NCBI GenBank assembly: GCA_030710605.1
Contig: CP092871.1
Span: 71,052,639-71,116,638 of the forward strand
Direction: 5' to 3'
From: Cordylochernes scorpioides
Lineage: Eukaryota > Arthropoda > Arachnida > Pseudoscorpiones > Chernetidae
Length of the DNA stretch: 64,000 nucleotides
Shown here: in pieces, positions 658 to 63,934 of the stretch
Position numbering within the stretch: the stretch's first letter is position 1
Layout of the letters: each line of letters starts with the position of its first letter
Notes under the pieces: model-generated
What the model saw: the letters and a program-made list of their open reading frames with translations, nothing else
The model's database searches: none
Told to the model about the DNA's origin: nothing
Position numbers and translations under genes: made by a program

Positions 658-1129
658 GTATATAGATGGCGCGTTATTTCTTATCTAAATTGATAGGAAA
701 CAAATAGCTTTCCATCTAAGTCTATATAACTTCCAAAAAGCTGCTATATTGAAAATATATTCCCCCTTATTGTTTTCTTCTCTATTTTACCTTTCATTCT
801 CTAATGTTTTTCCCAACTCGGACGAATTCTGTAATAGACGTAGGCCCCAAATAAACGCCGTTTGTGTTGTGGGGCCATTCATGCTAGGTATATTCAGATA
901 ATGTAAAGTGATTATACACAAGACCTCTTTCACATGTTGGAATGTTGAAGAAGTAAATGTGGTCATTCAGATTATGACTGTGGAAATCTGCGAGCTATAA
1001 AAGCCAGAAAACAAAGGTCATAAGTAGAATGGGCGAGTTGGGACTGAAATAAGATTACAGCTCGGGACTCCATGAACCTCAGAAGTCCGATATAAATCTA
1101 CACTCTATATATATATATTATATAGAAAT

Positions 1130-1520
1130 ATTCTATAAAATGTATTTTATTTTGAAATTATAATTTATAGGGAAAAAATTACTCTGTTGAATCGACCGCG
1201 CAGAGGTCGCGCTTTCCCTTTATAAAGCTTATTGTTGTTGTTTCTCGATGGCCGGCTCAAACCTTTTGTAAAGTATGTAAATAAGCTTTTCATTTTATTT
1301 TATTCTTACGCCTCAAATCAGGCAATATTTTCCTTAATTAGGTTTCATCATCACAATTAAATAAAATTGAATTCAAAGTTAATTTTATTTAAATATTACC
1401 ACGATTGCAAAACAATATCACATACTCATGGATTCCAAGATCAAGTAAATGACCAATAATTCCTCTACAAACAATTTTAATCTCTCAACAGAAGATAAGA
1501 TATTTCCTAATATATATATA
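1130..1520 (+). mobile_element. Old solo LTR, diverged
   Basis: This is a diverged copy of the LTR described at 1525 and 7771. It shares the block around CGACCG..CAGAGGTCGCGC, a TATA-like CTTTATAAAGC, the GTTGTTGTTT/GGCCGGCTCAAA block, the TATGTAAATAAGC stretch and the later CACGATTGCA block. It carries no LINE at the position occupied in the younger LTRs. It is also present in the right arm (about 28820-29210), so it predates the inverted duplication. Confidence 0.6.
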
Positions 1521-1670
1521 TATATGTTATATAAATGTATTATTTAAAATATTAAATTAAAATATTTTATTTAAAAATGTTATATGTTAAAATGTTATTT
1601 TATTTAAAGTTATAATTTCATAGAAATAAATACTCTGTTTTAATCGACCGCCAGAGGTCACTCTTTCCCC

Positions 1671-1677
1671 TATAAAA
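1671..1677 (+). promoter_or_regulatory. TATA box of the 5' LTR
   Basis: TATAAAA follows CTCTTTCCCC. The expected start of transcription, 25-30 bp downstream, falls at about 1696-1705. That is the junction with the inserted LINE (1695). Confidence 0.6.
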
Positions 1678-1695
1678 ACTCGTTGTTGTTCTTCT

Positions 1696-4600
1696 TCCAT
1701 CGACGTCACTTGCTGTAGTGCTAGCCTTGTAAATAGCGTTACCGATTGGCATCCTGAGTACCAGGAGTTGTCTGACCACAAACGCCTCGTCTTTAACCTC
1801 AATTTCGCTCCCTCTTCACAGGACAACACCAGATTTAAATTAAACAAATTTAGCGAAATATACTTCAGCTTTGGTCGTGCTGACTGGGATAGAGTTTTTG
1901 AACATTTCAGCCAAAAAATAGAAAATATTAATATTTTTTTAGAAAATGTGCGTGACTCATCCTCCCTCGACGATGTAATTAATTTACTCGGCGAAGAGAT
2001 TTTTCACACATGTCTAAACACCATTCCATCCCGTCCCAGAAGTGATAAATACCTCAAGTCCATCTCTTGGTGGAAATCTGATTTGAATCCTCTCAAAAGG
2101 GCCACTCAAAAGGCACAGCGGGCCTTTATAAAGGCACGCGGTGTCGTTAAGGGTGTGCTGGAGGTCTTTTACAAAAGACTTAAGGCAAGATATCGCCGTG
2201 CGAGGAGACTGGCTAAGAAAGAAGCATGGAGGGCAGCCTGCTCGCGTTGCGAAATCAGCCCTTGGGGTGGAATCTACAGTTTCATCAAGGGAAATTTTAA
2301 GCGCAAACCCCTCTCAGCTCTCCCAGTTGGTAGCGGCTTCACTGAAGGTCCGCGGGACACATTAAATCACGTATTAGATTACTATTTCGGCCGCGTCCCG
2401 CCCGATACCATGTTAGAACACAAAGATTTAAGCAAAGTCATCGCATCGTCATCTGATGACGACCCTTTGTTTACAGATAACGAGTTGTTGTTGACAGCGG
2501 ATAAGGTAAACTTATCTTCTTCTCCTGGTAGTGATGGCATGCCACCTCTTCTTATCGTAAAACTTGTTAAACATTTTCGGACGTTTTTTCTAAGTATTTT
2601 CAACAAGTGTTTAACCACTGGCCACTTTCCATCTACATGGAAGCTGGGGGACGTCGTTCTCGTCCCCAAGCGAAGTGGGGAGGACTTTCTCGCATCACAC
2701 CGTCCAATCACGATGCTGCCTGGTTTGGGCAAGATCCTTGAGCGTCTAATTCTTGCTAGGCTGTCGTGGATGGCCGATAGGATGTGTAAAGCGCCTCCAA
2801 ACCAGTTCGGATTTAAGCCTTGTAGGTCTACTACAGCCGCACTCTTAAATCTAAAATCTACTATTACCCGGACGATTAAAAATAGGAAATCTTGTCTTCT
2901 TCTTTCTTTTGATGTTAAAGGCGCTTTTGACAACGTGCTCCACTCCAGTATCTTGAGAGCGTTGCACAAAAGCGTCTGTCCCAGAAATATTTATCACCTG
3001 ATAAACTCGTTTCTATGTAACCGTGTTGTGAGACTATCTATGAATGGTTGTACTGTGTCGAGACGAGTTTCCAAAGGATGTCCCCAGGGTTCAGTTCTCG
3101 GCCCATTCCTTTGGAATATTGTCTTTGATGAACTCCTCACGCTGGACTACAGGAATAATGTTTTCCCGCAAGCCTACGCGGATGATCTGGTCGTGGTGGT
3201 CTCGGGATGCCGAACTAGTCAACTTCCCGCGGCCCAACACACCATAGATATGATCGCTAGGTGGTGCAGTTTGCATAAACTGGAACTCAGCGTGGGGAAG
3301 TGCCAGGCTATGGTTCTCCTCAGACCACACGGGAGACTGCCTGAACCGCGCCGGGATCTGGTTATCCACGGACGGCCAATCCAATGGTGCGACTCAATTA
3401 AGGTGCTGGGAGTGAGATTTGATCAACGTCTATCTTTCTACCAGCACGTAGTTGAAGTCTGCGCCAAGGTCCGCGGCATGTTGCCGCGTTTGACCGCAGC
3501 CGCTAATCTCAACTTTGGTTTTGGTTACCGCGCCTTGAGAACTCTGTATCTGCAAGTGGTTGTTCCGGCCATTGCCTATGCCTCGGCGGTATGGTTTCCT
3601 AATCTTTCTCAACGCTCCTTGAATGTTCTACTGAGTGCTCAAAGGCCTTTCCTAGTGAGAGCTTGTAGAGCTTTCAGATCAACCAGCAACGCTGCTCTAA
3701 TCTCCCTCTCTAGAGTCCTTCCTCTCGATCTGGAAATCTTGGCTAAAACTGAGCTATACCTTAAAAAGTATGGATTGGTTGACACTGAAATTCCACTCGA
3801 GCCTCCTCCCTTTCCACATCCTCTCCCCTACCCCCCCTATTACTCCGCTCCCAGTAATATCCCTGCTCTTTTCTTCCACGTGGCATACTATACAGATGGT
3901 TCCAAAACCAGAGATGGAGTTGGCGCCGGCGTGTACAGGTTCTCTTGTCTCGATTGTGCACCTGAAATACGTGAATCTCATGTTCTGTCCCCTCATTGTT
4001 CTGTCTTTCAGGCGGAAGCCCTTGGATTGGTTAAGGCTCTTGAAAACGCAACCACTTTACCAAATCATCTAACCTTAGGATTCTTCTTGGACAACCTCTC
4101 AGTCGTGAAGTCAGTTCTGAACTCTAAGACTGGTAATTACCTTATCGACAGAGCTCTGCTACTGATTTCGCGATTGAATCGCAATGGGAACAGATGCACC
4201 ATACAATGGATCAAGGGCTACAGTGGGAACGTGGGTAATGACATCGCGGACACACTCGCAAAGCGGGCTGCTGAGTCTGCTAACCCAAGCTGTTACAAAC
4301 TCGCTCCTTTGTCGTTTGTAAAATCGGCAATCTACGGCCGGGCGCGTGAAGCATGGGAAAGCAGATTCCTCTCTCTAGCTCCTTCTATCCACACCCGCTT
4401 TGGCCTTACTCCAATGAGTCTTTTAGACAAAAGGTATGCGTACATCGTCCCTAGCGAGCACATTGTGGTAGGCCTGCTATCGGGACACACGTGGACGGAC
4501 AGTTTCGCCCACAGGATAGGCGTCATTGACGATCCTTCCTGCCCTTACTGCGACGCTGACAGGGAAGAAACTCTGTCTCACATCGTGCTTGAGTGCAGCA

Positions 4601-4806
4601 GCCTTGATGCCCTTAGATTCCCCCTTCTTTCCACCTGTGCAGAAGAATTAGGGTACACTCCGCGGTCACTCAAAGACTTTATTTTCAACAGGAGCACTTG
4701 GCGAGCCTGCCTGGAGTTCCTAAAGGCCTCTGATAGACTTAAGCCACGCGTCCGCGCGGAGGATTCCGATCACCTGAGTGACTCGGACTCCTCACCTCAT
4801 GGTTAA
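1696..4806 (+). pseudogene. LINE ORF2 fragment: endonuclease end, reverse transcriptase, RNase H
   Basis: An open frame of about 1036 codons without a start codon. The frame is already open at the LTR junction, where only the last part of the APE-type endonuclease remains (SIDVTCCSASLV.., ending in SDHKRLVF). Reverse transcriptase follows: motif A DVKGAFD (about 2913), motif B GCPQGSVLGP (about 3080), and catalytic YADD at 3175-3186. RNase H follows: YTDGSK (about 3889), the AEAL glutamate, LDN, and GNDIADTLAK near 4240. In the last motif the usual histidine is a tyrosine (KGYSGN). A CPYCDADREETLSHIVLEC zinc motif lies near the end. RNase H plus a terminal CCHC fits the I/R1/LOA group of LINEs; the exact clade is an inference. 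No internal stop or frameshift, so it is recent but dead because the 5' end is missing. TTG at 1768 is not a real start. Confidence 0.9.
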
Positions 4807-5120
4807 CACCGGTCATTGGCGGCTGCCCGTAGACGTAACTCTGGCCTGTGCCGCTGCTTAAGATCGGTTTCGCGACCTGCCCTGCGTATGTGATCGCCCC
4901 CGACGCTGTCTCTGTATCCCAATGACAGAGGGCAAATGGTTTGGCGATTCGACGGCGCGGGCTGCTCGAGAAATCGACTTACGCAGCGACCCATTTGAAC
5001 GCGCTATGCAATCCATGGTGTACTTTTCTGGTTGGTCGTCTTAGCACTGGTACCCTCACCAGTAATCTTACCTAAAACTTTAATATATTCATTTTTACAA
5101 AAATATATATATATATAAAA

Positions 5121-5151
<31 letters not shown>

Positions 5152-5685
5152 TAATAATAATAATAATAAATAAAAATAAAAAAATAATCTATCTTTTCCC
5201 ATCAGTTGCTGAATCATTCTCGCTTTATCTAATATTCTTATTTAAACAACAGCTGTCTTTCTTTTATTTTCCCTGGCCTGGGGAATCTAACCTTTTTGAA
5301 CAGCCTTGGTTGCGTGCAGCACCTTGATACTTTGACACTGTGCATTGCGGCTTGTCTGCCTGCTACACCTTTTGGGCTTAAAAATCGTATACTTTAATCA
5401 TTGCGGTCTGTCTGCCCTCCACGGTCACCCCTGGGCTCAACACCATTGAACCCGTCTCTGCCACCCCCTGAACTCCCTGGATCACCACCCTGCTCCCCCC
5501 CCCCCCCCCCCCCCCCCCGGTCCTCCTCTACATCCCGGCTCTCCTGGCCTCACCTGGCGATGATCCCTGGCCACACATCCCCAGGCCCCTCCAACTATGC
5601 TTTGTATATATTCCGCTTTATGCGTCCATCGGGGCTCAAAAATCATTCATTTTGGTTAGCAGCCCCGTAAAATAAAGATATTTTC
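4807..5685 (+). other. 3' untranslated region of the LINE
   Basis: Non-coding. It contains (TAA)n and AT tracts (5100-5190), two related blocks with GCTTGTCTGCC / GGTCTGTCTGCC, and a run of about 22 C at 5497-5518. The last 60 nt match the 3' end of the gag-only LINE. The C run may be unreliable in length. Confidence 0.6.
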
Positions 5686-5949
5686 TCTTCCCCCGTTGGC
5701 CGACCCAAAACATTTGTACATTATGTAAATACGCTTTTCATTTTTTTATTCTTACGCCTTAAGCCAGGCAGTACATTTGTCAAATTATGTTTTTATATAT
5801 TTTTAAGCTCAATTAAAAAATTTATAATCTTTACTATTTTTATTATTTTTATTTCAAGATTATTCAACCACGACTGCACCACCATAGTATAATCACCAAG
5901 ATGATCCAAATCAACAGAAATCTTATCTATTTTTTCTATAATATAATAT

Positions 5950-7760
5950 AAGTCGACAGGATTACCTGTGTGTTCAATATGCCAAAAGCAAAATTTTTCA
6001 AACTCAAATATGCAAATCTTCTAACCAAATATAACTTTTTTCAATCAAAAATAGATCATTTCAATCAAAAATAGTTCATTTCAATCAAAAAATAGCCAAA
6101 TTCAAGTCAACATGCCCATCTCCAAGCAAACATAGCCACTACAATCAAACATCGCCATATCCAGTTAACTTAGGACAACTCCGGATTTCTCCATCCTCAA
6201 CCATCACCAGCCATCACACCTTCCGCCCAACACCAGCCATCTCCCGAGATCTTCAAATCCAGCCCATCTTCTATTTCAAGGTACTTTGTATCTGCCTTTT
6301 ACATAATTTGCCCCGTTTTAACTTTTTCTCTCTTGTTTACAATAGTTTTCAATCGCTTGTTTATAGTTATTTCCCTTTTTTGTTAAATCAATCTCAAATA
6401 TCAATTTTACCATAGCTGTTTTGCCCTTTAAATTAGAACCACACCTTTAATCCTTTTAAACCTTATTTTGCTCTCCATAATTGTACCTAAATATATCTCT
6501 TTTCATACTTTAACATTAAATATTTACAATTAAGTTAAACCATTTATAGATATCATTTTTTTATAATTCTATATGTAAAGCAGTCGGCCGGGAGGACAAC
6601 AACAACAACAAATTAACATATTTTTTACATTCAATTTCTTTATTAAAAATTAGCTAAACCTTAATGTTTCTCATATTATCAAATTATTTTTCAATATGTT
6701 CCGAATTCCCTATTGATTATCATATGACCACTATGCCTTATAGCTTCACACACATTTCCATCTTGTGTTTAAATTCCCCAACTTTTAATATTTGATAGTT
6801 TCTTATTAATTTCATTTCTTAATATGTTATTATTTTCAAAAATTTTCATTTTTACCCCTATTGCTTATTTCCTGTGTTAATATCTCAAAGCGTACCTAAC
6901 AAATATGTAAATTTAGCGTAGTCAACATATGTAAATTTTAACTTTTGTTTTTGTCCACCTTGATTCTTTTTCTTTAAATCATTCTTTTGCCCTACCATTT
7001 TTAAAAATCTTTACATTTTCATAACTTGTTTTCACATTTGCCTTTTGTACATAAACTTTCTCTTTTATTGCTTTTTCACAAATGCCTTATTTTCTTATCA
7101 TCCAATGTTGCCACCTATCCTTTACCAATGCCATTTTTAAATATATTGTTTATTTTCAATGCTATCATATTTATATCTTTCATTTATATATTTTGTTGTA
7201 ATTATTATGCATTTTATTTTTATTCCTCATTAATAACATATGTGTATCATTATCATGTTTTTCCCAATCTATTGACTCACAACAAGTCAATATGATCAAG
7301 GGATATCATCCTTTTTATTCCCACTTTTTAAATATGCATTCATTTTATTTTTCTTCCACATTTCTAATATTATGTGTATCATTTTTATCCTTGTCTTTTC
7401 CAATCTGTTGGCTCACAACAAGCCAATATGATCATGGAATATCACCCTTTTTATTTCTTACTTTTAATAATCATGCATTTTATTTTCCTTCTTCATTCTT
7501 ATTATATGTGTGTCATTTTCTCATGTTTTTCCAATCTATTGGTTCACATTAAGCCAATACGATTATGGAACACTTTTCTTTTCTCTCTTTAATAATCATT
7601 GACACTTTATACCATTTTGTACTTTCCTGTCTATTGGTTACTATCCAAAAACCAATATGATAAGTGAATATTACCTCACCTTTTCTTTCTATCAATCATT
7701 TTATCTTTTTTTAAACAATATTTTTATCACTTTTCTCTGAACCTATATTATTCTCTTCAC
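5950..7760 (+). other. Internal region of the LTR element, no ORF
   Basis: About 1.8 kb of pyrimidine- and AT-rich DNA with only short chance ORFs, so the element is non-autonomous. A short tandem repeat of ATTTCAATCAAAAATAG lies at 6058-6105. Near 6580-6610 is CAGTCGGCCGGGAGGACAAC, which on the other strand resembles the GTTGTTGTT/CCCG/GGCCG block at the LINE target site in the LTR. A similar block is at 44845-44880. The 3' third holds the hairpin series at 7271-7656. Confidence 0.6.
7271..7656 (+). repeat. Four repeated hairpins with covarying stems
   Basis: Four modules at 7271-7291, 7407-7427, 7538-7558 and 7633-7656 each form a 6-7 bp stem: TTGACT/AGTCAA, TTGGCT/AGCCAA, TTGGTT/AGCCAA and TTGGTT/AACCAA. 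At stem position 4 an A-T pair in copy 1 is G-C in copies 2-4. At position 5 C-G becomes T.G and then T-A. The first three follow a CAATCT leader (the fourth has GTCTATT), and all four are followed by an ATGAT/ACGAT block and mostly a GG..ATATCA-like block. Spacing is 136, 131 and 95 bp. Both changes keep pairing, which suggests an RNA structure kept by selection. Confidence 0.6.
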
Positions 7761-7770
7761 AGGGGGGAAA
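7761..7770 (+). other. Polypurine tract
   Basis: AGGGGGGAAA lies immediately before the TG that opens the 3' LTR. This is the expected plus-strand primer position and it fixes the orientation of the element as plus. Confidence 0.8.
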
Positions 7771-7916
7771 TGTTATATAAATGTATTATTTAAAATATTA
7801 AATTAAAATATTTTATTTAAAAATGTTATATGTTAAAATGTTATTTTATTTAAAGTTATAATTTCATAGAAATAAATACTCTGTTTTAATCGACCGCCAG
7901 AGGTCACTCTTTCCCC

Positions 7917-7923
7917 TATAAAA
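7917..7923 (+). promoter_or_regulatory. TATA box of the 3' LTR
   Basis: TATAAAA lies 73 bp upstream of the ORF1 ATG at 7990. The predicted start of transcription (about 7945) lies within the target-site duplication of the LINE. Confidence 0.6.
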
Positions 7924-7970
7924 ACTCGTTGTTGTTCTTCCCCGTTGGCCGTTGTTCTTCCCCGTTGGCC

Positions 7971-9485
7971 GTATCGGGTCGCTCTTGACATGAATCCTGC
8001 CAAGAAGAAAAAGAAGGCCTACAAGCCTACAACCCGCATCGTGAACGTCGCCGACCTGGAGAGGGAAGATGAGATGGTGATCTCACGCAACTGCAGCATC
8101 CTGAGCTCCATTGGCCATCCTGCCCTGAAATCCCTGCATGAGGACCTGATCCGCTACATCGCCTCGCGGACTGAAATGATCAAGGCCCTCGCTACCAATG
8201 TAGAGAACCTCACTGACACCCTCGAGTCCTTCGCAGAGTTGGACGAAATTGAGGAGGCCAACAAGCCCAAGACTGCTTGCCGCGGCACTCAAACCTGCCC
8301 TGCTCCTTCCTGCAATGAAACCAGCTCCCAGACTGACCCAATCAAGCCCGCCACTCCTGCTCCTGCTGCTCTCCCTGCCAAGAAGCCTGCCTCCTCCCTG
8401 CCTGCTCCTGCTCCAACCAAAAGGAAGCAGTCTGAAGCTCCCAACCCGCCTGCAAAGAGGACAAACCTGAATGGTCCTTCAAAACCTGTGCCTTCCCACG
8501 TCTCCAAGCCTGCGGCCGCCCAAGTGATCCTTCATGGAGAAAAATCGGCGGCCCACACAGTGGTCATCTCAGATGACCCACAGGCTGACCCAAGGGAGAT
8601 GCTGAAAACAGTCCGCGCTGCTCACACTCTCCCCCAAGGCGTTTGGGCCTCCCTGCGCACCAAGGGGAAGCTGGTCCTCCATTCCAGCAATCCTGACACC
8701 ATCCCTGAGGTTACAACCTCCCTGGCCAGCAAGTTGAATGGAATGAAGGTCCGCCAGCAGAAGGAGATCCTGCCACGGATCTGCCTCTTCAAAGTGGATG
8801 AGGAGACATCCAACTCCACAATTGAGGAGACCTTCCTGGAAACCGCTGCTGTTAGAAAACTTCCTGGGGACAAGGTGGTGCGCGTGGCGCACCGTTCTGC
8901 ACCCAGAAACGGGACCTGCACCGCCTTCATCGAGGTGGACCTCAAGACCTTTAGAGCCCTGGGCGTTCGCGGGAGGATCGTGGTGGATGGAGTAATCCTC
9001 AACTTCGAGGAGTCCATCCGCGCCCGCGTCTGCTTCCGCTGTTGTGGCTTCGGCCACAACTCTGCCCAATGCACCAGAGCTCCTAAGTGCTTCCACTGCG
9101 GTGAAGACGGCCATGAAGGCCGAACCTGCCCATCCATTGCTGACCAGCGCACCTCCAAATGTGCCAACTGCTGCTCCCAGGGCCTTCCTGACAAGCACGA
9201 GGCGAGAGCCTCAAGCTGCCCCATCCTGAAGTCTAGGGCCCTCAAGTTCTAGGCTTCAAGGACCTTCTGCCTCCATTTCCATCTGCCACTTCTCCTGGAT
9301 TCCTGGCCTATTCAACGCACCCGCCTCACTGCACCCTGGCGCTATTCCCCTGCTTGCCCAACGTTTCCACCACCCCTACGAGACATCTCCTGCTTCCACA
9401 TCCTAGGGTCCCTTGCCACCTGACATCGATTTTGGGCTCAAAAATCATAACTTTTGGTTAGTAGCCCGTAAATAAAGATATTTTC
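7971..9485 (+). mobile_element. Gag-only LINE inserted at the LTR transcription start
   Basis: Starts GTATCGGG after the duplicated target and ends ..AATAAAGATATTTTC. It encodes only ORF1; no endonuclease or reverse transcriptase sequence lies between the ORF1 stop (9252) and the 3' end. The last 60 nt are shared with the ORF2-bearing LINE at 1695-5685. The 15-bp flanking duplication TCTTCCCCGTTGGCC marks a LINE-type insertion. Confidence 0.8.
7990..9252 (+). CDS. LINE ORF1 (Gag-like) protein, intact
   Basis: A 420-residue ORF1 protein, intact from ATG to TAG. The N-terminus is very basic (MNPAKKKKKAYKP). A Pro/Ala/Lys-rich linker spans roughly residues 90-180, followed by a globular region. 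At the end are three zinc motifs: CFRCCGFGHNSAQC (about 348-361), CFHCGEDGHEGRTC (about 367-380) and a third with CANCC..H..C from about 391. Three such knuckles are the hallmark of ORF1 in R1/I/Jockey-group LINEs, where the protein packages the element RNA. I chose the ATG at 7990 because the frame upstream is LTR sequence without an ATG. The leader from the insertion junction is only about 20 nt. GC content is much higher than in the surrounding LTR DNA. Confidence 0.85.
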   Translation: MNPAKKKKKAYKPTTRIVNVADLEREDEMVISRNCSILSSIGHPALKSLHEDLIRYIASRTEMIKALATNVENLTDTLESFAELDEIEEANKPKTACRGTQTCPAPSCNETSSQTDPIKPATPAPAALPAKKPASSLPAPAPTKRKQSEAPNPPAKRTNLNGPSKPVPSHVSKPAAAQVILHGEKSAAHTVVISDDPQADPREMLKTVRAAHTLPQGVWASLRTKGKLVLHSSNPDTIPEVTTSLASKLNGMKVRQQKEILPRICLFKVDEETSNSTIEETFLETAAVRKLPGDKVVRVAHRSAPRNGTCTAFIEVDLKTFRALGVRGRIVVDGVILNFEESIRARVCFRCCGFGHNSAQCTRAPKCFHCGEDGHEGRTCPSIADQRTSKCANCCSQGLPDKHEARASSCPILKSRALKF

Positions 9486-9748
9486 TCTTCCCCGTTGGCC
9501 GACCCAAAACATTTGTACATTATGTAAATACGCTTTTCATTTTTTTATTCTTACGCCTTAAGCCAGGCAGTACATTTGTCAAATTATGTTTTTATATATT
9601 TTTAAGCTCAATTAAAAAATTTATAATCTTTACTATTTTTATTATTTTTATTTCAAGATTATTCAACCACGACTGCACCACCATAGTATAATCACCAAGA
9701 TGATCCAAATCAACAGAAATCTTATCTATTTTTTCTATAATATAATAT

Positions 9749-14944: not shown

Positions 14945-16438
14945 CACTGGTGTCCAAAAAATAAGAAACTTAACCAATATTGAAATTTCTCAAAAGATAA
15001 TTTATTAACAAATATAAAATTTAGTATACGAATAGTTTAAACTATGGAGAATTTGACTAGCTATATGAAAATAATAAAAAAATATTTGAAATTATGAAAT
15101 ATGCAAATTATTACCAACATACCCAAAGCTAAGGTTCCAGATCTTAAAGAAATAAGATATCAATAGGGAGTATGATCACCTCTAACAGCTATCAAGGTCC
15201 CACAGCGAGCCCTCATACTGTTTACCAGGCTTTGGAGGAGGTCCATGGGTAGTAAACCCTACTCCTCCAATAGAGCAGTTCTTAGCTCAACGAGGGTTCT
15301 GGGAGAGGGGTGACGAGCTCCTATACGCCTCCCTAGAGCATCCAACACATGCTCTATTGGATTCAGGTCCGGAGATCTGGCTGGCCAATCCATCCTTCGA
15401 ATATTCTCACTCTGGAGATATTCATTGACTAGCCTAGCTCTATGCGGACGAGCATTATCGTCCATTGAAATTAAATTGTGACCAATTTGATCTCTATAAG
15501 GTCTTAGATAGGGCTCAAGGATCTCGTCCCTGTACCTTTGGGCAGTTAAAGTGCCCCCAGAAAAAATGTGGAGGGGTGTGAGTCTGCTAGAACTGATGCC
15601 AGCCCAGACTAAGAGACTGCCCCCTCTAAAACTGTCTATTTCCCTAATGTTTCTGGGATGATAGCGGGTTCCAGGCTCCCTCCAGATGAAAACTCGTCGA
15701 TAATCTGTGTTTAAACTAAATCTTGACTCGTCACTGAAGAAAACATTGGCCCACTGATCATGAGTCCAGGCGTGATTTTCCAAGCACCAATTCAAGCGGG
15801 CTCTCCTGTGAGCAGAGGTTAAAGGGATACAGACCATTGGTCGTCTTGCATAAAGAGCACCTTCGTGAAGCCTTCGGTAAACAGTTTGTCTTGAAATTCT
15901 CGTTCCAGTAGCACTTGAGAGTTCATTAGAGAGTTGAATAACTGTCATCTCCCTATGGCGCTTGGCAGTTACGACCAGATAACGGTTTTCAGAGGTAGCT
16001 GTTTTTCTTTTTCTACCAGAACCTTCTTTTCTTTTGATGGTTCCTGTCTCAATGAACTGTTTCCATATTTTGCTGACCACTGATTTATTCACATTTAGGC
16101 CTTTTGCTACTTCAACAACTGATTGCCCTGCCTCCATTCTTTCAACAGCTCTCCATTTTAAATCATCTGCTAAAATATTTCGTATACTCATAATTAACTA
16201 AGGATTAAATAAAATTATAATTGGACAATTCTTAGATGGGGTAAGCGACACGCCAAATAGCACACTTATAAAGACAAACAAAAATTTGCATATTTTCAAT
16301 TTTACCGAATCGAATGGTTGCGATAAATAAATTCTACGACTTAAAATACCTAATTAAATTACTTTTTAGCTTTTAGCGTTATATATTTCAAAACATATCA
16401 TTAAAAAATAAAAGTTTCTTATTTTTTGGACACCAGTG
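14945..16438 (-). mobile_element. Tc1-family DNA transposon
   Basis: A 1494-bp element with terminal repeats CACTGGTGTCCAAAAAATAA at both ends and TA duplications at 14943-14944 and 16439-16440. It encodes one transposase on the minus strand. Confidence 0.95.
15160..16191 (-). pseudogene. Tc1 transposase with one premature stop
   Basis: The frame opens with MSIRNILADDLKWRAV and runs 310 codons to a TAG at 15259-15261. An N-terminal paired-type helix-turn-helix lies at about residues 8-60 and a basic GSGRKRK linker follows. The DD34E catalytic triad is complete: D154 in FSDESRF, D245 in DDNARPH, E280 in LNPIEH. After the TAG the same frame stays open for 33 more codons and encodes the usual Tc1 end (..LVNSMRARC.., RGDHT), then TGA at 15160-15162. 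The stop sits where the family normally has Trp (TGG), so one base change probably truncated the protein. The product would have all catalytic residues but lack about 33 residues. Confidence 0.9.
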
Positions 16439-22320: not shown

Positions 22321-25300
22321 TTACATGATGGTAATTGGAGATGGAGGAAAGAAACCTCGACGCTGGAGGGTCCTGGACCAGGCGATGAGCGGGTCCTCCA
22401 CCGCTTCTCCGAGCCCAACCTGGACAAAGAAGCGATAAATTCGCAACTTTGCCGACGCCAGGATGGAAAGGGCGTCGTCCTCAAGGCCGGACCCGCCGAA
22501 GATCCAAGCCTGCAGGTCAGGGGGCCGCTCTATGATGTTGAAGGCCTCTCTGATGAGAGGCCTGATGGAACGGCAGCACCAGTAACGGTGGCCGAGGGAG
22601 CGGTCGATGGACCCGCAGGCAGGACAGGAGGGGCCGACCGAGGCAGGATGGGCCGGATGGGGCAGGGCGTGGAGGGCCAACTTGAGGACCGCGTCGGCCT
22701 CGTGGCCCGAGTAGGCGCCGCGCCGCAGCGAGGCCCAGTCGATCCTGGATGGTGGTGGACCGATGGTGGGCGACCATCTCGAGGTGAACCTCGAGATGGG
22801 CGTGGCGGCGAGGCGCGGGCGATCCAGGGCCCGTCGGGCCGAGCGGGTCGTGAGGCCGTTGAGGAACGGCGTAGCCGTCCCTCGCAGCACCACGGCCGCA
22901 GCTAAGGAACTGGAAGAAGGCGTGGATTCCGCCCCGAAGCCCACGGCGTTCTCGGAGGTCAGCCTCCGACAGAAGGCGCCCAGGGTCGCGGCGTCAGCCA
23001 GGACGGAGCGCGTAGGGCGGGCGATGAGGTGGCCCTCCGCGAGAAGGTCCCGGACTCGGGCTCCACGCCAGCGGGCGGGGGCCAGGAGGTCGGGAGGGCG
23101 GAGGAACCGGCAGCCGCCGATGATGGGGAGGTCCAGCAGCTGAGCCGTGGGGACCGCCCGGTGGTTGAGGCCCAGGATGTTGGAGGCCTCCTCCCATAGC
23201 TTCAGCAGCCGGAGACGGCGGGGCTGGAGACGGGTGCCGTCCGGTGGAGGGTGGATCCAGGCCTCACCGCTTTCTACCTGCCAGCTGAAGGCATTTCTGC
23301 CTCCGCGGAGCGCGACCTGCACCCCCTTGAGGCAGGCGAGCTGGAGTTGGGTTGCCAGGTCGAGGAGGCCGAGGCCTCCGATGGCTACGGGCCTCGCCAT
23401 GACGGCGGCGGGAAGCCACGCCGTATGCTCGGGCCCCCATACGAACCTCGCTAGTCTGGCCTGCAGTTTGGCGATGGTCGGGGGTGATGGCAGGTACCCG
23501 TGCAGGTGATGCTGGATGGTGGAGCCCACCAGCGAGTTCGCCGCTCTAGCTCGTCCAACGAGGGATAGGCCGCGGGTGAAGGGCGTCCATCTGCGGCAGG
23601 CGGACTCCAGAAGGGCGAGAAGATGCTGCTCCTGATGGACTACGGAGCTTCTGGGGGCGATGTCGAGCCCGAGGACCCTGATGGAGGTGGTCGACCAGGA
23701 GGCGCCGAGAGGGGAGTCGCCGCGGTTGCGCCAGGCTCCGCACCAAAGGCCCGCGCTCTTCCCGAGGTTGACGGCGATACCGCAGGCCCGCTTGAAGTCT
23801 TCGAGGACGGTCGCCACCCGCTCGAATTCTTCGTCGCGATGGAAAAGGAGGACGATGTCGTCGGCGTAGGCGATGACGTTGCCCACGCCGAGGGTCAACT
23901 CCAGGCGACGTAGCAGCGGCCCCGTAGCGATTCTAAAGAGAGCGGCACTCACGGCGCAGCCCTGCCGTTGAGAAGGGGGAAGGCGGTGGTGTGAAAGCCT
24001 CCAGCCCGGATCGTTGCGTCCGCCCCGGCGTACAAGATGTTAAACCAGCCCATGAAGGCCGGCGGGAGGCGGAGGGACGTCATCAGGGACTCCAGGAAGC
24101 CGCGGTCCAGGGAATCGAAGGCGGACTCCAAGTCGATGCCCATGACGGCCAGCGGCGAGCCCATGGCGGTTGCCTCCTCAACAGCATCCGTCACCTTAGC
24201 GATGTTCCAGGGCGGGGACCTCCCGGGGACGGCGTAAGTCTGGCATTCCGGCACAAGGGTCCGCAGGTGGGGCTTGAGGCGCCGATGAAGGATGGCGGCC
24301 AGGACCCTGTAGTCGGCCGAGGGCAGCGCGACGGGCCTGTAGCCGTCAAGGCCGCGACCTCCGCGGGCCTTGGGCACGAGGCAGATGGAGCTGCGCCGCG
24401 TCGACGGAGGTAGGGCACCGCGGAGCCGTGAAGCCGCGAACACCCGGGCCAGAGCTTCCGCGAAGAAGTCCTCGTTGAAGGCGACGAGGAGTTCGCACGG
24501 CAAGCCGTCCCAGCCGGGGGCCTTTCCGCGAGGGAGGTGCTCGATGGCGTTGGCGATCTCGCTGGGGCTGATGTCCGGCCGGTGGAGCGGGTCCTCCTCA
24601 CTCAGCTCGCAGGTGGTGGTGGGCGCGCTGCTGGCGATGAAGGCAGCTCCCGCAGCTGGATCGGTGGTGGGACGGGCGAAGCGGGGCCGGAAGGTCGCGA
24701 ACGCCCTCCGCCGAAGCTCGGGGCCCTCGATGACGTTATCTTCGTCGTCCCTGATGACGCTGACCGGGCGTCGGAGACGGATGACGCGTGCCAGGTCCGG
24801 CAGCGATTGGTAGTCGGCCCGGATGGAGGAGGCCTCGAGCTGCGCCGCGATGTAACGTCTCGCCCTGTAGACGTAGCTGTCTCTGGCAGCGTGGCGTGGG
24901 TCGTGCAGGGATCTGGCCTCCGCCAGCAGCCCCGCCTTGATGGAGGTCCACCTATCCCAGAAGGTCCCGTCGTCGTCATCGTGCGCTGCGTCTTCCTCCA
25001 ACTCCCGGATGTAGCCAGCCAGATGTTCGAGAGCAAGGCCCGAGCGGAGCATCGCGGCCAAGCGAGGCTGGGTGGGGGAGGAGACGGCGGTGGTGGGCGG
25101 GCCCACCTGGAGCAGCACGAGGCGGTGGTCCGAAAGGTGGTAGTGGCTGGTCGCGTAGATGGACACGCGATCCAGGACTCCAGCAGGGACGAGGATCCGG
25201 TCCAGGCGGTTCGATTCGACTTGGTCGCCGTGCATGGCGACTCTGGTGGGCAGGTGGGCGGCGTCGAACTGGGTGGCCACGTCGACCAGCGCGGCCAGGT

Positions 25301-25787
25301 CCAGAAGAGCGGCGAGGGTATCCGATGATGATGATGATGAGGGGCCCCGATCCCTGATGTTAAAATCGCCGATGATCCAGCAGGCCCCCTCCTCCTCCAG
25401 TGCCGCTGTCGCCGCCAGGAGCTCCAGTTGCCGGTTTCTCTCCCGGGGTTCATGCGCCAGATGAACGACGATGGCCGTCATCTCCTCGCCGTGGACATCT
25501 ATGGTTGCCAAGGCGATGTGGCCCGGCCACAGGACGCGCTGTTGTATCACGGCTATGCCTGGCCCGAAGACGCAGGCGAATCCGGATCCCGAGATGGCTA
25601 CGGGATGGGCCAACACAACAGCGTTGTAGCCGAGGCAGAGGTCTTGGCCGCTGCCGAGATGAAATGCGTTTGTCTCCTGGACAAACGCGATGTCCACGTG
25701 ATGTTGCCTTAGGAGATGACAAATGGCAAGGCTCCTCCCCCGAGTGGCGAGCCCTCGCGCGTTGATGGTGGCGACGCGGTAACTCAT
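22321..25787 (-). pseudogene. LINE ORF2 (endonuclease + reverse transcriptase), one frameshift
   Basis: The first frame (25787 to 23949, 612 residues) begins with a real ATG and has an APE-type endonuclease: TINARGL near the start, FVQET, GDFN, and DRILV..SDHRLV. The reverse transcriptase follows: GKAPGWDGLP, VPKARGGRGLDGYRPVALPS and motif A GIDLESAFDSL. The frame stops where motif B should begin. The second frame (from about 23952 to 22321, 543 residues) resumes in motif B (GCAVSAALF on the shifted frame), then catalytic YADD, GKSAGLW and a late CPACGS..GHRYWCC zinc motif. A few bases, probably 7, are missing between two GGC triplets, and this is the only visible lesion. No RNase H. The protein would nick DNA and copy the element RNA in place. 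Confidence 0.9.
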
Positions 25788-27322
25788 TTGGGCCGTCCAA
25801 CAAGCAGCACCGCCCTGGTCTTCTGGAGGGTCTTGTAGACAAGGGTGCTCGAGTTAGGGCATGAGTCCATGATGATTTTGGACAGCTCAATGAAGGCGGT
25901 GACTTGTGTTTCCAGCAGCGAGGGTACTCGCTTCTTCATGTTGGTTGGAGAGGCGAGGAGCTTCTGTTCGTCCTCCCAGTTTAGGCCGAGCAGCCCGGAG
26001 TGGTCGATGGCAATGGAGGGGAGCTTCTCGAGATGTTCTCGCAGCTGGACGATTGCGGGTTTTGCCTTGGAAGGCGTGGAGGGAGTTGAGGTCCGCTCCT
26101 CCTCCGACATCTCGCTGTCGAGCGGGAGGATCGCGGGCTCGAGGGGCCGCGGGGCAGTCATAGGAGCAGGGAGGGCAACAGGGGCGGGCTGGGCAAGATT
26201 CTTCGGTTCGGCAGGATGGGGCGCCGAGGGGATCGCTGGAGCCTCGGTTGATGTCTTCGCCGGTTGGACAGGGGACGCCGGTGTTGCGGGCGCAGGTGTC
26301 GGCCTCCTTGGCTGCTGAGGAGGAAGAGGAGGGGGGAGGGGCCTAGCGTCGGTGGGAGACGCTGCTTGCCTGGGGCTGCTGTTCTGCCTGGCGAGCGATG
26401 GGCAGTTTGCTCTGCGGTGGCCCTGCCTTCCGCATTTGGAACATTTAATTCCGAAGGAGAGGAAGGCAGATAGGGTGTCTCCCTTGGACTGGATGGTCAG
26501 TCGGGCGGGCAGGGTCTCCAGCCTTACGCCCTCGTGGAGTAGGATGAACGCCTCCCGACGGCCGTCGCTGAAGGCGAACTCCCCCATTTTGATCATGATG
26601 GGGGCGATGAAGGTGATGTCTCCGTATTTACGCAGAGCCTGCACGATGGTGGCGTCCTCTACAAAGCCGGGGAGATTGGCCACGATTATCCTTTCGGCCC
26701 TCTTGCGGAAGGGGAAGACCTTGAGGAGTGTTCCCTCGATGTTCAGGCCCTCCTCCACCAAACGGCTCGCAAGGTTCCTGCTCGCGAGGCCCACGATGTG
26801 GTGGCCGTTCATCCTGCCAAAGTGGGTGATGTTTTTGGGCCCTCCGACCTGGTCGCCGATTGCCCGGAGGTAGGAGTAGTCCGGAATGATAGGGCACAGC
26901 TCCACGAAGATGTAATTTTCGTGGTTGGTTGTGGCCTGCCTCGCCTTGGCGTCGGCGATGTTGGCGCGTGTCGCCTTGATCTCCTGAGGCGGCACTGCTC
27001 TCGGCCCTGTTGGCCGCTTACGCTGTTGGGGGCTGGGCTTCTTAGCAGGCCTGCCAGGCTGCCCAGCGGCGTGCTCCGGCGTTGAAGTGAGGCGCCTCTT
27101 CTTGCCCTTCACGACGATGAAGTCGTCGTTGGCGCCGACCTCCGTCATCTCGCTGTCCGCCCAGTTGAGCGAGGTCGGGCTGGCTGCAGTTGCGCTGGTC
27201 GTAGCAGCATTCTTCGGCGCCGTGACGTCACCACGCGCGGCGGCCGGATTTACATGCATATCGCCTGCCGGCGGATTTGCATCTTTTTGATTATTAGAAG
27301 AAATTTCAATTGTTTTCTTCAT
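25784..27322 (-). CDS. LINE ORF1 (Gag/RNA-binding) protein, intact
   Basis: 512 residues from the ATG at 27322 (MKKTIEISSN); the longer frame to 27421 has only a GTG. The first third is disordered and Pro/Ala/Lys-rich. A folded part resembling an RRM-like RNA-binding region follows (NYIFVELCPI.. to ..GRREAFILLHEG, roughly residues 135-270). Then comes one zinc knuckle CSKCGRQGHRRANC (about 294-307), a Pro-rich stretch and a helical end. It would coat the element RNA. Its stop overlaps the ORF2 start as ATGA, which suggests ORF2 is made by termination-reinitiation. No lesion seen. Confidence 0.85.
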   Translation of the reverse strand: MKKTIEISSNNQKDANPPAGDMHVNPAAARGDVTAPKNAATTSATAASPTSLNWADSEMTEVGANDDFIVVKGKKRRLTSTPEHAAGQPGRPAKKPSPQQRKRPTGPRAVPPQEIKATRANIADAKARQATTNHENYIFVELCPIIPDYSYLRAIGDQVGGPKNITHFGRMNGHHIVGLASRNLASRLVEEGLNIEGTLLKVFPFRKRAERIIVANLPGFVEDATIVQALRKYGDITFIAPIMIKMGEFAFSDGRREAFILLHEGVRLETLPARLTIQSKGDTLSAFLSFGIKCSKCGRQGHRRANCPSLARQNSSPRQAASPTDARPLPPPLPPQQPRRPTPAPATPASPVQPAKTSTEAPAIPSAPHPAEPKNLAQPAPVALPAPMTAPRPLEPAILPLDSEMSEEERTSTPSTPSKAKPAIVQLREHLEKLPSIAIDHSGLLGLNWEDEQKLLASPTNMKKRVPSLLETQVTAFIELSKIIMDSCPNSSTLVYKTLQKTRAVLLVGRPK

Positions 27323-28077
27323 ATTCTCGTTCTTTGGCGATAATTCCTCGCCTGTTTGTAGAAGGATGCTGGGCCTTTCAGGCACTTTTTCAGTACATCC
27401 TGGGCTCTCTGCCAGTACCACACTTGCCAGGTTAAACGCCCTTCACACGCACTCTAAAGGCGAAAACGGCGGAGCTCGCAAAAGTGCGGCCGCACGCTCG
27501 AGTGTGTGTGTGTGTCTGTTTGTCCTTTATGCCTGACCAAACCACTCATTGGAACGCCATGAAACTTTGGGAAGTTATTTAGTATAGTACTGGGAAGGTT
27601 TCTAGCGAATAAAATTTTTGAAATAACTTTTCGCTTTAAAATAATCAAGATAAATATTCTAATTTATCTGTTATAATTCAACAATCTGCTCTAAATATTA
27701 TCATGATGATACGATGATTTTGTAATGTAGAAAATTAGGAAAGACAAAATTCAGGATGACACGGCAATTTATTTGAGACAAGAATAATGATACAATTCCA
27801 AGGCAAGATACTATTCTTTTAACTTCCAATTACCGAGGGAACCAATTAATATTGATTTTATTCAACTTATCGAGTTTTTTTCAAGGGACCGGGAAAAAAT
27901 GTTCACTTTATTGAGAGATTCGTTAGACAAACCTTTACTCGGGTAAAACCCGGGCGAAGCCGGGTACGTCCGCTAGTTCATTATAAAAATGTTGAGGGGT
28001 CATTTGAGAGATTAATATTTTATTTAGATTTCTTGAAAATAAAGATACTTCGGCCAGTAAATCTTTTTATTACCTCG

Positions 28078-28819: not shown

Positions 28820-29210
28820 ATTAGGAAATATCTTATCTTCTGTTGAGAGATTAAAATTGTTTGTAGAGGAATTATTGGTCATTTACTTGATCTTGGAATC
28901 CATGAGTATGTGATATTGTTTTGCAATCGTGGTAATATTTAAATTAAATTAACTTTGAATTCAATTTTATTTAATTGTGATGATGAAACATAATTAAGGA
29001 AAATATTGCCTGACTTAAGGCGTAAGAATAAAAAAAAAAGGAAAAGCTTATTTACATACTTTACAAAAGGTTTGAGCCGGCCATGAGAAACAACAACAAT
29101 AAGCTTTATAAAGGGAAAGCGCGACCTCTGAGCGGTCGATTCAACAGAGTAATTTTTTCCCTATAAATTATAATTTCAAAATAAAATACATTTTATAGAA
29201 TATTTTATAT
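28820..29210 (-). mobile_element. Old solo LTR, right-arm copy
   Basis: Counterpart of 1130-1520. It contains GAGCCGGCCATGAGAAACAA, the intact equivalent of the LINE target site. Confidence 0.6.
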
Positions 29211-29689
29211 AATATATATATATAGAGTGTAGAGTTATATCGGACTTCTGAGGTCCATAGAGTCCCGAGCTGTAATCTTATTGCAGTCCCAACTCGCCCA
29301 TTCTACTTATGACCTTTGTTTTCTGTCTTTTATAGCTCGCAGATTTCCACAGTCATCATCTGAATGACTACATTTACTTCTTCAACATTCCAACATGTGA
29401 AAGAGGTCTTGTGTATAATCACTTTACATTACCTGAATATACCTACCATGAATGGCCCCACAACACAAACGGCGTTTATTTAGGTTCTACGTCTATTACA
29501 GAATTCGTTCGAGTTGGGAAAAACATTAGAGAATGAAAGGTAAAATAGAGAAGAAAACAATAAGGGGGAACATATTTATAAATATATTTTCAATATAGCA
29601 GCTTTATGGAAGTTATATAGACTTAGATGGAAAGCTATTTGTTTCCTATCAATTTAGATAAGAGATAACGCGCCATCTATATACATAAA

Positions 29690-58218: not shown

Positions 58219-58354
58219 TATATATTTAGTTTTAGAAATTATGTAAGTTAGTTAGTTATGAAAGGAATTTAAAAGTATTAATTTCTCCGAGGTGTTGGTG
58301 ATTACTCTGCTCGATGATAATAAAGGAATGTCTTAGCTCCCAACAGACCAAATA

Positions 58355-59324
58355 TTCAAACCTGCTGCACATTTTAACTTACACCTCTATCTCGAACAAT
58401 CCTTCCCTAAAGCGTTGCCCGTAATAAAAATACTCAGATACAACAAAATCTTCCGACAGATATTACTCAACCATCAATCTCAGAAATTTATAGCTATCCC
58501 AAAAAGAAATCTCTATGTTACAAAGAATCTTGAGTACACTTCAGCAACCATCCTAACTGGCCATGGCTATGTTACAGCTTACTAGGCAAACATTTTGAAA
58601 GAGGATCCAATTTTTTTCCCACTAATAGAATGATGACCAATCAATGGATTATCTGCTTTATTAATCATCTCTCCAATACCAATGATTTCAGGTGGCCACT
58701 CTCCTAGGAATTCCCGATTTAAACCTGGCATTGCTTGAAAATTTCTCAGAAATAATCTGCTTAACGCTAACTTCATTCATTGAAAATTTGCTGGATTTTA
58801 AATAAAACGAAAAAAAGTTAAGTCTGATTGATAAGCCCATATGAAGCAAAATCGAAATGATAAAAAAATCAAAGTTAAGTATGCATATATAATACTTATA
58901 TATGAAATAAATAGACTTACCATCCGAGTAAAGTAAAATATACATAGAGAAAGATACAACTCATATAAAATCTAAACTAGTAAAATTCTCTGCAACTATT
59001 AAATGGGAATGTTATTTTTTTTCTGGAGATGTCAAGAGAAATTTCAAATTCCGATTTTTATTGAAAAATTCAGTCCGAATACCATATAATTTATCAAAAA
59101 TTGGAGTGGTTGAGGACTCTAGCTGTCATTATGGCAACGCATTCCAGGACTCGAGACACCTACTGCTGGAATGCCCACTCTTCTTTATCGCTAGACAACA
59201 GACAATAAACAATGTTGTAGATCTATATCAATTTGTAAATAGCAGAGAGAATTATCATAGATTCAACTATTTTTGTAAATATATTAATGATTATCTTTCT
59301 AACCTGAAAGGTTCAGGTTCCTAA
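58355..59324 (+). pseudogene. LINE ORF2 C-terminal remnant
   Basis: An upstream piece (58355-58585) reads ..NLYVTKNLEYTSATILTGHG, the RNase H/post-RT type of LTGHG motif. After broken sequence, 59061-59324 reads CHYGNAFQDSRHLLLECPLF, a typical C..H..LLECP zinc motif of LINE ORF2 ends. Stops and indels lie between. No catalytic domain is left. Confidence 0.6.
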
Positions 59325-59326
59325 TA

Positions 59327-59652: not shown

Positions 59653-60505
59653 TATATATTATTATTTCTCTTTGTATTTTTGATTACTTTCTTGTATATA
59701 ACTGTTTCTGTTTAAAAAATGTAAATCGACGCAATTATCCCTAGCCGGGATATCGCGTTTGTGTGTTGAAATAAATAAATACCATAAATGATTGAGTTAA
59801 AACAACTTTTTATTCTATTCGTTTAAAAATCCAGTAGGTGAAAACCCGAGTGTTTCTTGGGGCATTCTTCTAGTTTGATAAATATATTTTCATATATCTA
59901 TTAATATTTATTATATGTTGATATATCACGCGCTACACATTTTATTTACTTATGTTTCAAGCAAAAAGTCACTAATATAAAATACATTGGAAACAAACCT
60001 AAAGAAGTTTCATATTTTAAAGATGTCGGTCATTTTATTTTCAAGGAGACAGAGACAATTTTGTTCACACTTGGTTCAGAGTTCTTATTTGAATCCCGAT
60101 ATATATGCTAAAACTTTCTTAAGGTTTGTCTATGACTGTTCATTTTCTGGCTGAAATGTCCTCATTTGTCTAGACTATCAATCCCCGGTTCGGTAACTTC
60201 TATTATCGCGATAATTTTTCACATTGTTTAAACAGAAAAACTCTATGACAATAATCCCCGCTTCCAAAATAACCATTTTTAGATAATAAGCTGCTTTCCG
60301 GTAAGAGACTATTTCAATTCTAAGCAGTACTTTGGATCGGTAACTTAATGGTGTCTTTTAGATAGAGGCGTAGATGGTAAGATGTCCGGAGTCAAATTTG
60401 AATATTTTATATTAATTCTTTAGACAATTAAAATAATTTTATTGACATCTTGTCAATACATGCAAAAGTTCACAGTCTGCACTATTTTAAAAAGATAATT
60501 ATATA

Positions 60506-60773
60506 TGTTATATTTAAATATTATTTTATTTAAAATTATATTTATTAGATTCAAATACCCTGTTTAAATCGACCGCCAGAGGTCATGCTTCCCCTATAAA
60601 AACTCATTGTTGTTGTTTCCCGATGGTCGGCTCAAATCTTTTGTACATTATGTAAATAAGTTTTTCATTTTCTATTCTTACGCCTTAAGCCAGGTAGTAC
60701 TTTAATCAAATGATGTTTTTTATATATTCCATAAGTTCAATTAAAGCAATATCTGATCAAAACTATTTTTATT
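60506..60773 (+). mobile_element. Solo LTR, family of 1525/7771, 3' end cut
   Basis: Begins TGTTATATTTAAATATT; contains CGACCGCCAGAGGTCATGCT, CCTATAAAAACTC and an unoccupied target block TTGTTGTTGTTTCCCGATGG. It is cut by unrelated sequence at 60774. Confidence 0.75.
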
Positions 60774-61020
60774 AGTGTAGCGGCACGAGAATACCAAGAT
60801 AAGTCCGCCACCTGTTTATAACAATTAAGTGTCCTGCTGTAAAAATATCAGAGATAAATCTCGTAAAACCATTTATTAGGTAATATTTGAAAGAAATAAA
60901 GTTAAACAATTAATAACAGTCAAAGTTGAAGGAATCAAACAAAGGACAGCGGCACTCCCAGCTGTCGTCTCCAAACGCGCAGAGCTCTGACTTCTTGTGG
61001 ACACACACACACTCACACAC
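60774..61020. other. Sequence between the duplicated segments
   Basis: Starts TGTAGCGGCACGAGAATACC and ends with (CA)n. Not found elsewhere in the window. Possibly an LTR fragment; no ORF. Confidence 0.35.
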
Positions 61021-62244: not shown

Positions 62245-62246
62245 TA

Positions 62247-62573: not shown

Positions 62574-63449
62574 TATATATTATTATTTCTCTTTGTATTT
62601 TTGATTACTTTCTTGTATATAACTGTTTCTGTTTAAAAAATGTAAATCGACGCAATTATCCCTAGCCGGGATATCGCGTTTGTGTGTTGAAATAAATAAA
62701 TACCATATATGATTGAGTTAAAACAACTTTTTATTCTATATACATATTCTTGTACATTCGGTTAAAAATCCAGTCGGTGAAAACCCGAGTGTTTCTTGGG
62801 GCATTCGTCTAGTTTGATAAATATATTTTCATATATCTATTAATATTTATTATATGTTGATATATCACGCGCTACACATTTTATTTACTTATGTTTCAAG
62901 CAAAAAGTCACTAATATAAAATACATTGGAAACAAAACTAAAGAAGTTTCATATTTTAAAGATGTCGGTCATTTTATTTTCAAGGAGACAGAGACAATTT
63001 TGTTCACACTTGGTTCAGAGTTCTTATTTGAATCCCGATATATATGCTAAAACTTTCTTAAGGTTTGTCTATGACTGTTCATTTTCTGGCTGAAGTGTCC
63101 ACATTTGTCTAGACTATCAATCCCGGGTTCGGTAACTTCTATTATCGCGATAATTTTTCACATTGTTTAAACAGAAAAACTCTATGATAATAATCCCCGC
63201 TTCCAAAATAACCATTTTTAAATAATAAGCTGCTTTCCGGTACGAGACCATTTCAATTCTAAGCAGTACTTTGGCTCTGTAACTTAATGGTATCTTTTAG
63301 ATAGGGGCGTAGAAATAATGGTAAGATGTCCGAAGTCAAATTTGAATATTTTATATTAATTTTTTAGACAATTAAAATAATTTTATTGAAATCTTGTCAA
63401 TACATGCAAAAGTTCACAGTCTGCACTATTTTAAAAAGATAATTATGTA

Positions 63450-63820
63450 TGTTATATTTAAATATTATTTTATTTAAAATTATATTTATTAGATTCAAAT
63501 ACCCTGTTTAAATCGACCGCCAGAGGTCATGCTTCCCCTATAAAAACTCATTGTTGTTGTTTCCCGATGGTCGGCTCAAATCTTTTGTACATTATGTAAA
63601 TAAGTTTTTCATTTTCTATTCTTACGCTTTAAACCAGGTAGTACTTTAATCAAATGATGTTTTTTATATATTCCATAAGTTCAATTAAAGCAATATCTAA
63701 TAAAAACTATTTTTATTGGCATTCTTTCAAGATTATAACCACGACTGCATTAACATAGTTTAATCCTCAAGATGATCAAAAATCAACAGAAATCTTATCT
63801 TTTTTATTTTTATATTGAAA
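63450..63820 (+). mobile_element. Solo LTR, family of 1525/7771
   Basis: As at 60506 but longer at the 3' side, with CACGACTGCATTAACATAG and CAACAGAAATCTTATC as in the LTRs of region 1. The LINE target block is unoccupied. Confidence 0.75.
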
Positions 63821-63934
63821 TATACAAGTATCAGAGTCATCAATTCTGTTATCGTTTGCTTTTGTGAATGGAATGCTTTTACATAATATACGTAAAATAC
63901 GTAACTAATATGACTGAAATTTTACATGTATAGT

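Follow-up and report, generated by a model that had tools for sequence, protein, structure and literature searches.

The window analysed here is a stretch of 64,000 nucleotides from the pseudoscorpion Cordylochernes scorpioides (contig CP092871.1, positions 71,052,639 to 71,116,638), whose genome we examined as 2.62 Gb in 24 contigs. It contains a long terminal repeat (LTR) retrotransposon, spanning 1525-9748, with a long interspersed nuclear element (LINE) inside each of its two LTRs, LINE-A in the 5′ LTR and LINE-B in the 3′ LTR (Table 1). The host element has the paired LTRs and the polypurine tract of an LTR retrotransposon and is missing from a natural empty site. Its left LTR halves (1525-1694 and 7771-7940) are identical at 170 of 170 positions, and its right LTR halves (5686-5949 vs 9486-9748) are alike but for a single C in the C-run of the junction. 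Both LINEs meet the LTR at the identical base, ..AATAAAGATATTTTC(TC)|TTCCCC. An earlier note on this DNA had described LTR parts that look identical, holding LINEs at the same nucleotide, and had read these as two separate insertions at the transcription start of the LTR. Our analysis bears out the shared position, the match between the LTR parts and the separateness of the insertions, and points to a LINE family whose insertion site is set by its distance from a TATA box.

Table 1. Features of the occupied LTR element and the unoccupied LTRs of its family in the window (ORF, open reading frame; RT, reverse transcriptase; UTR, untranslated region)
Feature	Position	Strand	Remarks
5′ LTR, left half	1525..1694	+	TATA box 1671-1677; inferred first nick after 1691
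LINE-A insertion, 5′-truncated within ORF2	1695..5687	+	endonuclease end, RT, RNase H, 3′ UTR; frame open to 4806; ends ..GATATTTTC + TC
5′ LTR, right half	5688..5949	+	first ~13 bases are target sequence
LTR element internal region	5950..7770	+	polypurine tract immediately 5′ of 7771
3′ LTR, left part	7771..7950	+	TATA box 7917-7923; target duplication copy 1 at 7938-7950
LINE-B leader	7951..7989	+	includes additional 20-nt copy of LTR start region
LINE-B ORF1	7990..9252	+	420 amino acids, gag-like, CCHC knuckles (by eye)
LINE-B 3′ UTR	9253..9487	+	ends ..GATATTTTC + TC
3′ LTR, right half	9488..9748	+	target duplication copy 2 at 9488-9500
Unoccupied LTR, same family	60496..60774	+	copy made by local duplication
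Unoccupied LTR, same family	63449..63823	+	copy made by local duplication
Unoccupied LTR of family, more diverged	1113..1327	+	
Unoccupied LTR, more diverged	28986..29217	-	inverted duplicate of 1113-1327; adjoins empty site of entire element

The two LINEs of the window have only their last ~59 bases in common, at ~90% identity; the remainder is a pol part in LINE-A and a gag part in LINE-B, so that they represent two elements. A full-length LINE-A of ~5.8 kb at locus L023 encodes a 420-amino-acid gag-like ORF1 and an open frame of 1230 codons, in which Pfam recognizes RVT_1 (7.8e-38), Exo_endo_phos_2 (3.4e-15) and an RNase H domain. A LINE-type RT and an apurinic/apyrimidinic (APE) endonuclease within one ORF identify a non-LTR retrotransposon, and the further hallmarks of this class, a constant 3′ end, variable 5′ truncation and target duplications, are present as well. 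The closest matches among solved structures are R2 and L1 proteins. Of the 45 protein matches with the best scores, taken from 60,030 first-look candidates and so biased toward intact copies, 42 have a LINE-A ORF2 free of stop codons. LINE-A looks autonomous and would be the source of endonuclease and reverse transcriptase. A run of 24 C lies at 5495-5518 within its 3′ UTR in the window.

LINE-B is 1.5 kb long and codes solely for a gag-like protein; a Pfam search with the gag proteins gave no match at the cut-off. Its gag is 26% identical to that of LINE-A over 204 aligned positions; LINE-B is therefore a line of its own, gag-only but with the same 3′ tail, and not a plain internal deletion of LINE-A. 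A third type, also gag-only (L014, 5020-6538), joins a LINE-B-like gag (82%) to a LINE-A tail (98%). First-look candidates, 1193 for the LINE-B end and 1360 for the LINE-A end, hint at about a thousand copies of each. Two loci carry a transfer RNA (tRNA) sequence followed by a LINE-A-like 3′ tail in similar insertion arrays (tRNA-Glu at L064, 134-206; tRNA-Asp at L094, 68-141); these chimeras are perhaps nascent short interspersed nuclear elements with the same target.

In the first LTR family (LTR1), to which the window element belongs, the nick lies 21 bases past the first T of TATAAAA, and in the window LINE-B the inserted sequence starts ~34 bases past that T, the target duplication included; neither distance is the 25-30 bp initially proposed. 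The LINE 3′ terminus is ..GATATTTTC followed by a TC tail of varying length, reaching nine repeats in L039. Among 31 copies tested, 28 have a target duplication of 13-16 bp, with lengths above 13 possibly containing chance overlap with the TC tail; the duplication is 12 bp in L032 and 9 bp in L034. This test omitted array copies and copies without a readable left side, L019 excepted. Arrays of two or three LINEs occur at one site in L014, L019 and L023, as would follow from the target being restored by the duplication.

Insertions in the genome were collected in three samples. A query spanning the junction, a design biased to junctions, gave 40 scored places from 5369 first-look candidates, and 20 of these were examined over 9 kb each; the LINE 3′ end is joined to the LTR right half in all 20, and the LTR left half lies upstream in 18. 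The other two samples were blind to the flanks and tabulated what follows the LINE 3′ end, the check that the earlier note had named. For LINE-B, 40 places were chosen by a 3′ end that is 100% identical over 106 bases in each of them. LTR1 is the host in 28, with a direct joint to the LTR right half in 21; the other seven are known by their left side or past another stretch (L038, L047, L048, L050, L057, L058 and L064). The remaining ends comprise two in a second LTR family (L043, L046), two in arrays with unknown host (L060, L063) and eight elsewhere. For LINE-A, 20 of 40 places were examined, the window copy being among the 20 left out: eight ends lie directly in LTR1, four are followed by another LINE and eight lie elsewhere. 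L084 and L085, both among LINE-A's eight, have identical flanks (160/160) and are one duplicated locus; L013 and L044 are a single locus. The expected preference thus held for LINE-B, which is mostly in LTR1, but for LINE-A a direct joint to LTR1 accounts for under half of the ends. The second LTR family, seen in L046, has a polypurine tract and a TGTTAT start. Another repeated target, the third, is TTACTCGYTAGTCTAGTTAAATCRAGCC, shared by the right flanks of L056 and L065; L065 also has a TATATA box.

Outside LTR1, nine insertions had a readable target and entered a test for TATA spacing: two in the second LTR family, one in the leader of another LINE and six others. The 5′-truncated L051 and L056 and seven of the eight LINE-A copies located elsewhere, which have no readable left target, were omitted; L078 is preceded by the 3′ end of another LINE. 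A match of at least 6/7 to TATAWAW lies at exactly -21 from the first nick in seven of the nine sites, and at -21 to -23 in eight. None of 200,000 resamplings from the flanks of these same sites reached the summed best TATAWAW score at -19 to -23. Four of the sites had suggested the rule, and the other five, taken as a held-out test, likewise gave 0 of 200,000 (for L072 against a pooled null). When nine distinct targets (LTR1, the second LTR and seven more) are tabulated base by base, TATA is the sole clearly conserved stretch, and around the nick there is a mere preference for T. The target is broader than one sequence, and its specificity appears to lie in a TATA box at a set distance.

These data bear directly on the alternative that the LINEs recognize strictly the sequence of the LTR start, in the manner of R1 and 28S ribosomal DNA (rDNA), with all other sites being rare errors. 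The concentration of 28/40 LINE-B ends in one LTR family, and the recurrence of GTTGTTC|TTCCCC or near variants as the insertion site in LTR1, speak for such a specificity. However, sites outside LTR1 are not rare (10/40 LINE-B and 8/20 LINE-A ends), the readable ones have TATA in common but, apart from the T preference, hardly any sequence around the nick or within the duplication, and they too have target duplications, of 10-13 bp. We regard strict specificity as unlikely. Of the sequence-specific insertion at +1 of an LTR that had been proposed for the window, the recurrent site and the predicted LTR start stand; what the other targets share is the TATA box at a set distance and not LTR sequence.

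The LINE-B copies at the common LTR site are separate insertions. In 26 LINE-B/LTR pairs from 25 loci, the window included, LINE-B has a mean identity of 98.8% (minimum 95.9%), compared with 84.7% for the host LTRs, and the LTR pair is more alike than the LINE pair in only one of 325 comparisons, that exception being one locus taken twice. With young LINEs ~99% alike sitting in LTRs ~85% alike, there must have been many separate entries into diverged LTRs. Such independent use of a single defined site characterizes a site-specific LINE. Random insertion followed by survivorship, in which only copies behind a promoter propagate and so mimic targeting, is in keeping with the near absence of a 5′ UTR, which would leave copies in need of a promoter. 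Such selection could enrich for the vicinity of promoters but would not yield one exact base with a constant duplication, and 5′-truncated copies (the window LINE-A, L017, L026 and L027) occupy the same base; we consider it very improbable. Equally hard to credit is a switch of the LTR-element reverse transcriptase to LINE RNA at the 5′ end of the LTR RNA. The junction does lie near the predicted RNA 5′ end. Yet LTR replication derives both LTRs from one template, so both should carry the same insert, and in the window the inserts differ; non-LTR TATA sites with duplications and LINEs 98.8% identical in diverged LTRs would also go unexplained. Carriage of a single LINE insertion by LTR retrotransposition, suggested at most by the practically identical LTR halves of the window and named by the earlier note among the outcomes that would refute its reading, is in effect excluded by the identities of LINEs and host LTRs (0.988 vs 0.847), by the different LINEs in two LTRs of one element and by insertions in a different LTR family.

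The leaders of LINE-B offer a view of how these copies may be expressed. LINE-B has little 5′ UTR of its own, and in L030 the ATG directly follows the duplication. In the window the leader is longer than the ~20 nt first reported, at 39 nt, half of which is the additional copy of the LTR start. Across 23 copies, 8-mers from the first or second LTR start region occur in the leaders of ten, compared with a mean of 1.2 and a maximum of 5 in shuffles. The L045 leader has pieces of both LTR starts in tandem, and that of L061, which lies outside LTR1, has 24 bases of the start of the second LTR at 96%. The simplest reading of these leader sequences is that transcription begins in the host LTR, whose start then travels with the RNA into the next copy. 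Slippage or template jumping at the 5′ junction could account for simple repeats; neither would explain pieces of a different LTR. According to PMC11514446, metazoan TATA promoters start 30-35 bp after TATA, with melting beginning ~21 bp after it. By these distances the duplication, at TATA+22 to +34, spans the predicted start and is similar to the melted region, which would leave each LINE just behind a TATA box and start. The LINE copies are thus probably transcribed from the host promoter, at the start predicted from the TATA distance. In the right flanks of L041 and L060, another LINE-like ORF start (ATGCTACCG.. / ATGCCACCG..) lies directly downstream. The leader of that ORF in L041 includes the start region of the second LTR family, and another LINE may thus use the same kind of site.

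Taken together, we favour, with a probability of roughly 85%, an APE-type LINE family whose integration sites lie a fixed distance past a TATA box, for the most part at predicted LTR retrotransposon starts. Integration would presumably proceed by target-primed reverse transcription, with the first nick ~21 bases after the T of TATA and a ~13-bp duplication over bases 22-34, the interval in which transcription from a metazoan TATA promoter is expected to begin. Copies would end up directly behind the TATA box and start, and would probably be transcribed from the host promoter. The main hosts would be the LTRs of one retrotransposon family, of which the window copy has no coding interior, with a second LTR family and other TATA sites also used. 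LINE-A would provide the endonuclease and reverse transcriptase, and the gag-only LINE-B probably moves with the LINE-A enzyme by way of the shared 3′ tail. We infer that the machinery recognizes either TATA or a complex on TATA. A tentative extension, for which we put the odds somewhat below even, is that it recognizes RNA polymerase II pre-initiation or open complexes, nicking the bottom strand at the onset of melting (TATA+21) and the top strand past the start (TATA+34). In this extension the duplication would be the melted region, and the captured start would express the LINE, with past host promoters recorded in the leader.

Several observations weigh against a TATA-positioned family. No LTR left half lies beside the LINE in L010 and L015 of the junction sample, nor in L036 and L042. 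The LINE-B 3′-end sample comes from contigs 1 and 2 only, owing to ties at 100% identity. Left sides are readable in 9 of 18 sampled insertions outside LTR1 and arrays, and the five held-out sites had been viewed by eye before the scripted test. The box of L052 is weak (5/7), TA runs are present in L062, L065 and L072, and 6/7 matches also occur at -23 in six and at -25 in five of the nine sites. The TC tail leaves nick positions ambiguous by 1-3 bases, and the 5′-truncated LINE-A of the window has no clear target duplication, with no match of at least 7 bases. Thirteen of the 23 leaders have no LTR piece, and one of the pieces counted (L029) may be due to chance. Finally, the position of the LTR start is a prediction from the TATA distance.

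Within the window, a large inverted duplication relates 1-13.8 kb to 19.1-30.3 kb, with ~96% of ungapped flank bases identical. The arm at 28.8-30.3 kb is without the entire LTR element and provides the natural empty site; the LTR element is confined to one arm, and a ~5.8 kb LINE-ORF segment to the other. Minus-strand LINE ORFs at 22321-27421 in this second arm have an RT domain divided between two frames. A tandem duplication of ~2.45 kb at 97% identity (58346-63717) duplicated one empty LTR. The unoccupied LTRs reported earlier at 60506 and 63450 hence do exist but are one insertion copied, and with the second duplicated pair there are two independent empty LTRs. The internal region of the element has no ORF of at least 120 amino acids in the ORF list; similar internal regions flank LTRs in L011, L027 and L031, with L011 also arranged as LTR, internal region and LTR. 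Inspection by eye after 5949 showed no obvious tRNA complement as a primer binding site. Self-priming, with the minus strand of the internal region pairing to the LTR start, was rejected, an equally good match arising in 42 of 300 dinucleotide shuffles and in 20, 57 and 59 of 300 mononucleotide shuffles. Scans for viral contigs gave a single match, L001, which was judged due to chance, and a plasmid scan led nowhere. The window further contains a cullin-like ORF of 671 amino acids in a single open frame (52862-54877; Pfam Cullin, 3.3e-22), perhaps a retrocopy, and an open Tc1/mariner-like transposase ORF of 310 amino acids on the minus strand (15259-16191).

If TATA-positioned integration is correct, this LINE obtains the promoter that it needs by aiming at promoters, and an LTR element serves as host to another retrotransposon. 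It would also provide an APE endonuclease with a promoter-position rule open to testing in vitro, and leaders that are a readable record of successive host promoters. Among titles and the beginnings of abstracts in the open-licence papers searched, we found no account of a LINE set by TATA distance or placed at LTR starts. The nearest counterparts by features are the R1-type, site-specific APE LINEs, such as R1 in 28S rDNA and TRAS/SART in telomeric repeats, which share the APE endonuclease, RT, two ORFs, fixed nick, constant short duplication and use of host transcription, the last being predicted here. Unlike R1 and TRAS/SART, our family has as its target a TATA promoter, mostly that of an LTR retrotransposon, and its specificity apparently lies in the TATA distance. 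It is not R1 proper, its main host being the LTR that holds 28/40 LINE-B ends, with rDNA not searched for among the other flanks. Tx1L of Xenopus is a LINE that targets one site in a DNA transposon. Our family likewise targets another mobile element but, unlike Tx1L, uses the start regions of at least two element families. PMC4640811 assigns both an APE endonuclease and target-specific insertion to the R1 and Tx1 clades and lists transposons among LINE targets. HeT-A of Drosophila telomeres, according to PMC5537684, is a non-autonomous LINE without pol for which an array neighbour carries the promoter in its 3′ UTR. LINE-B is similar in having a gag ORF without pol and many near-identical copies (25 loci). 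Whereas HeT-A uses chromosome ends and the 3′ end of another HeT-A, LINE-B has an internal target and would use LTR promoters; the sampled copies lie inside contigs at LTR or TATA sites and not at chromosome ends. HeT-A also captures 5′ pieces of the element upstream, much as LINE-B leaders hold pieces of LTR starts. Ty3, Tf1 and TRE5 integrate close to where transcription starts or at a defined distance from a gene, Ty3 and Tf1 by means of an integrase and TRE5 as a LINE, but at tRNA genes. The family described here resembles them in its placement near starts or at a fixed distance, as a LINE at TATA boxes.

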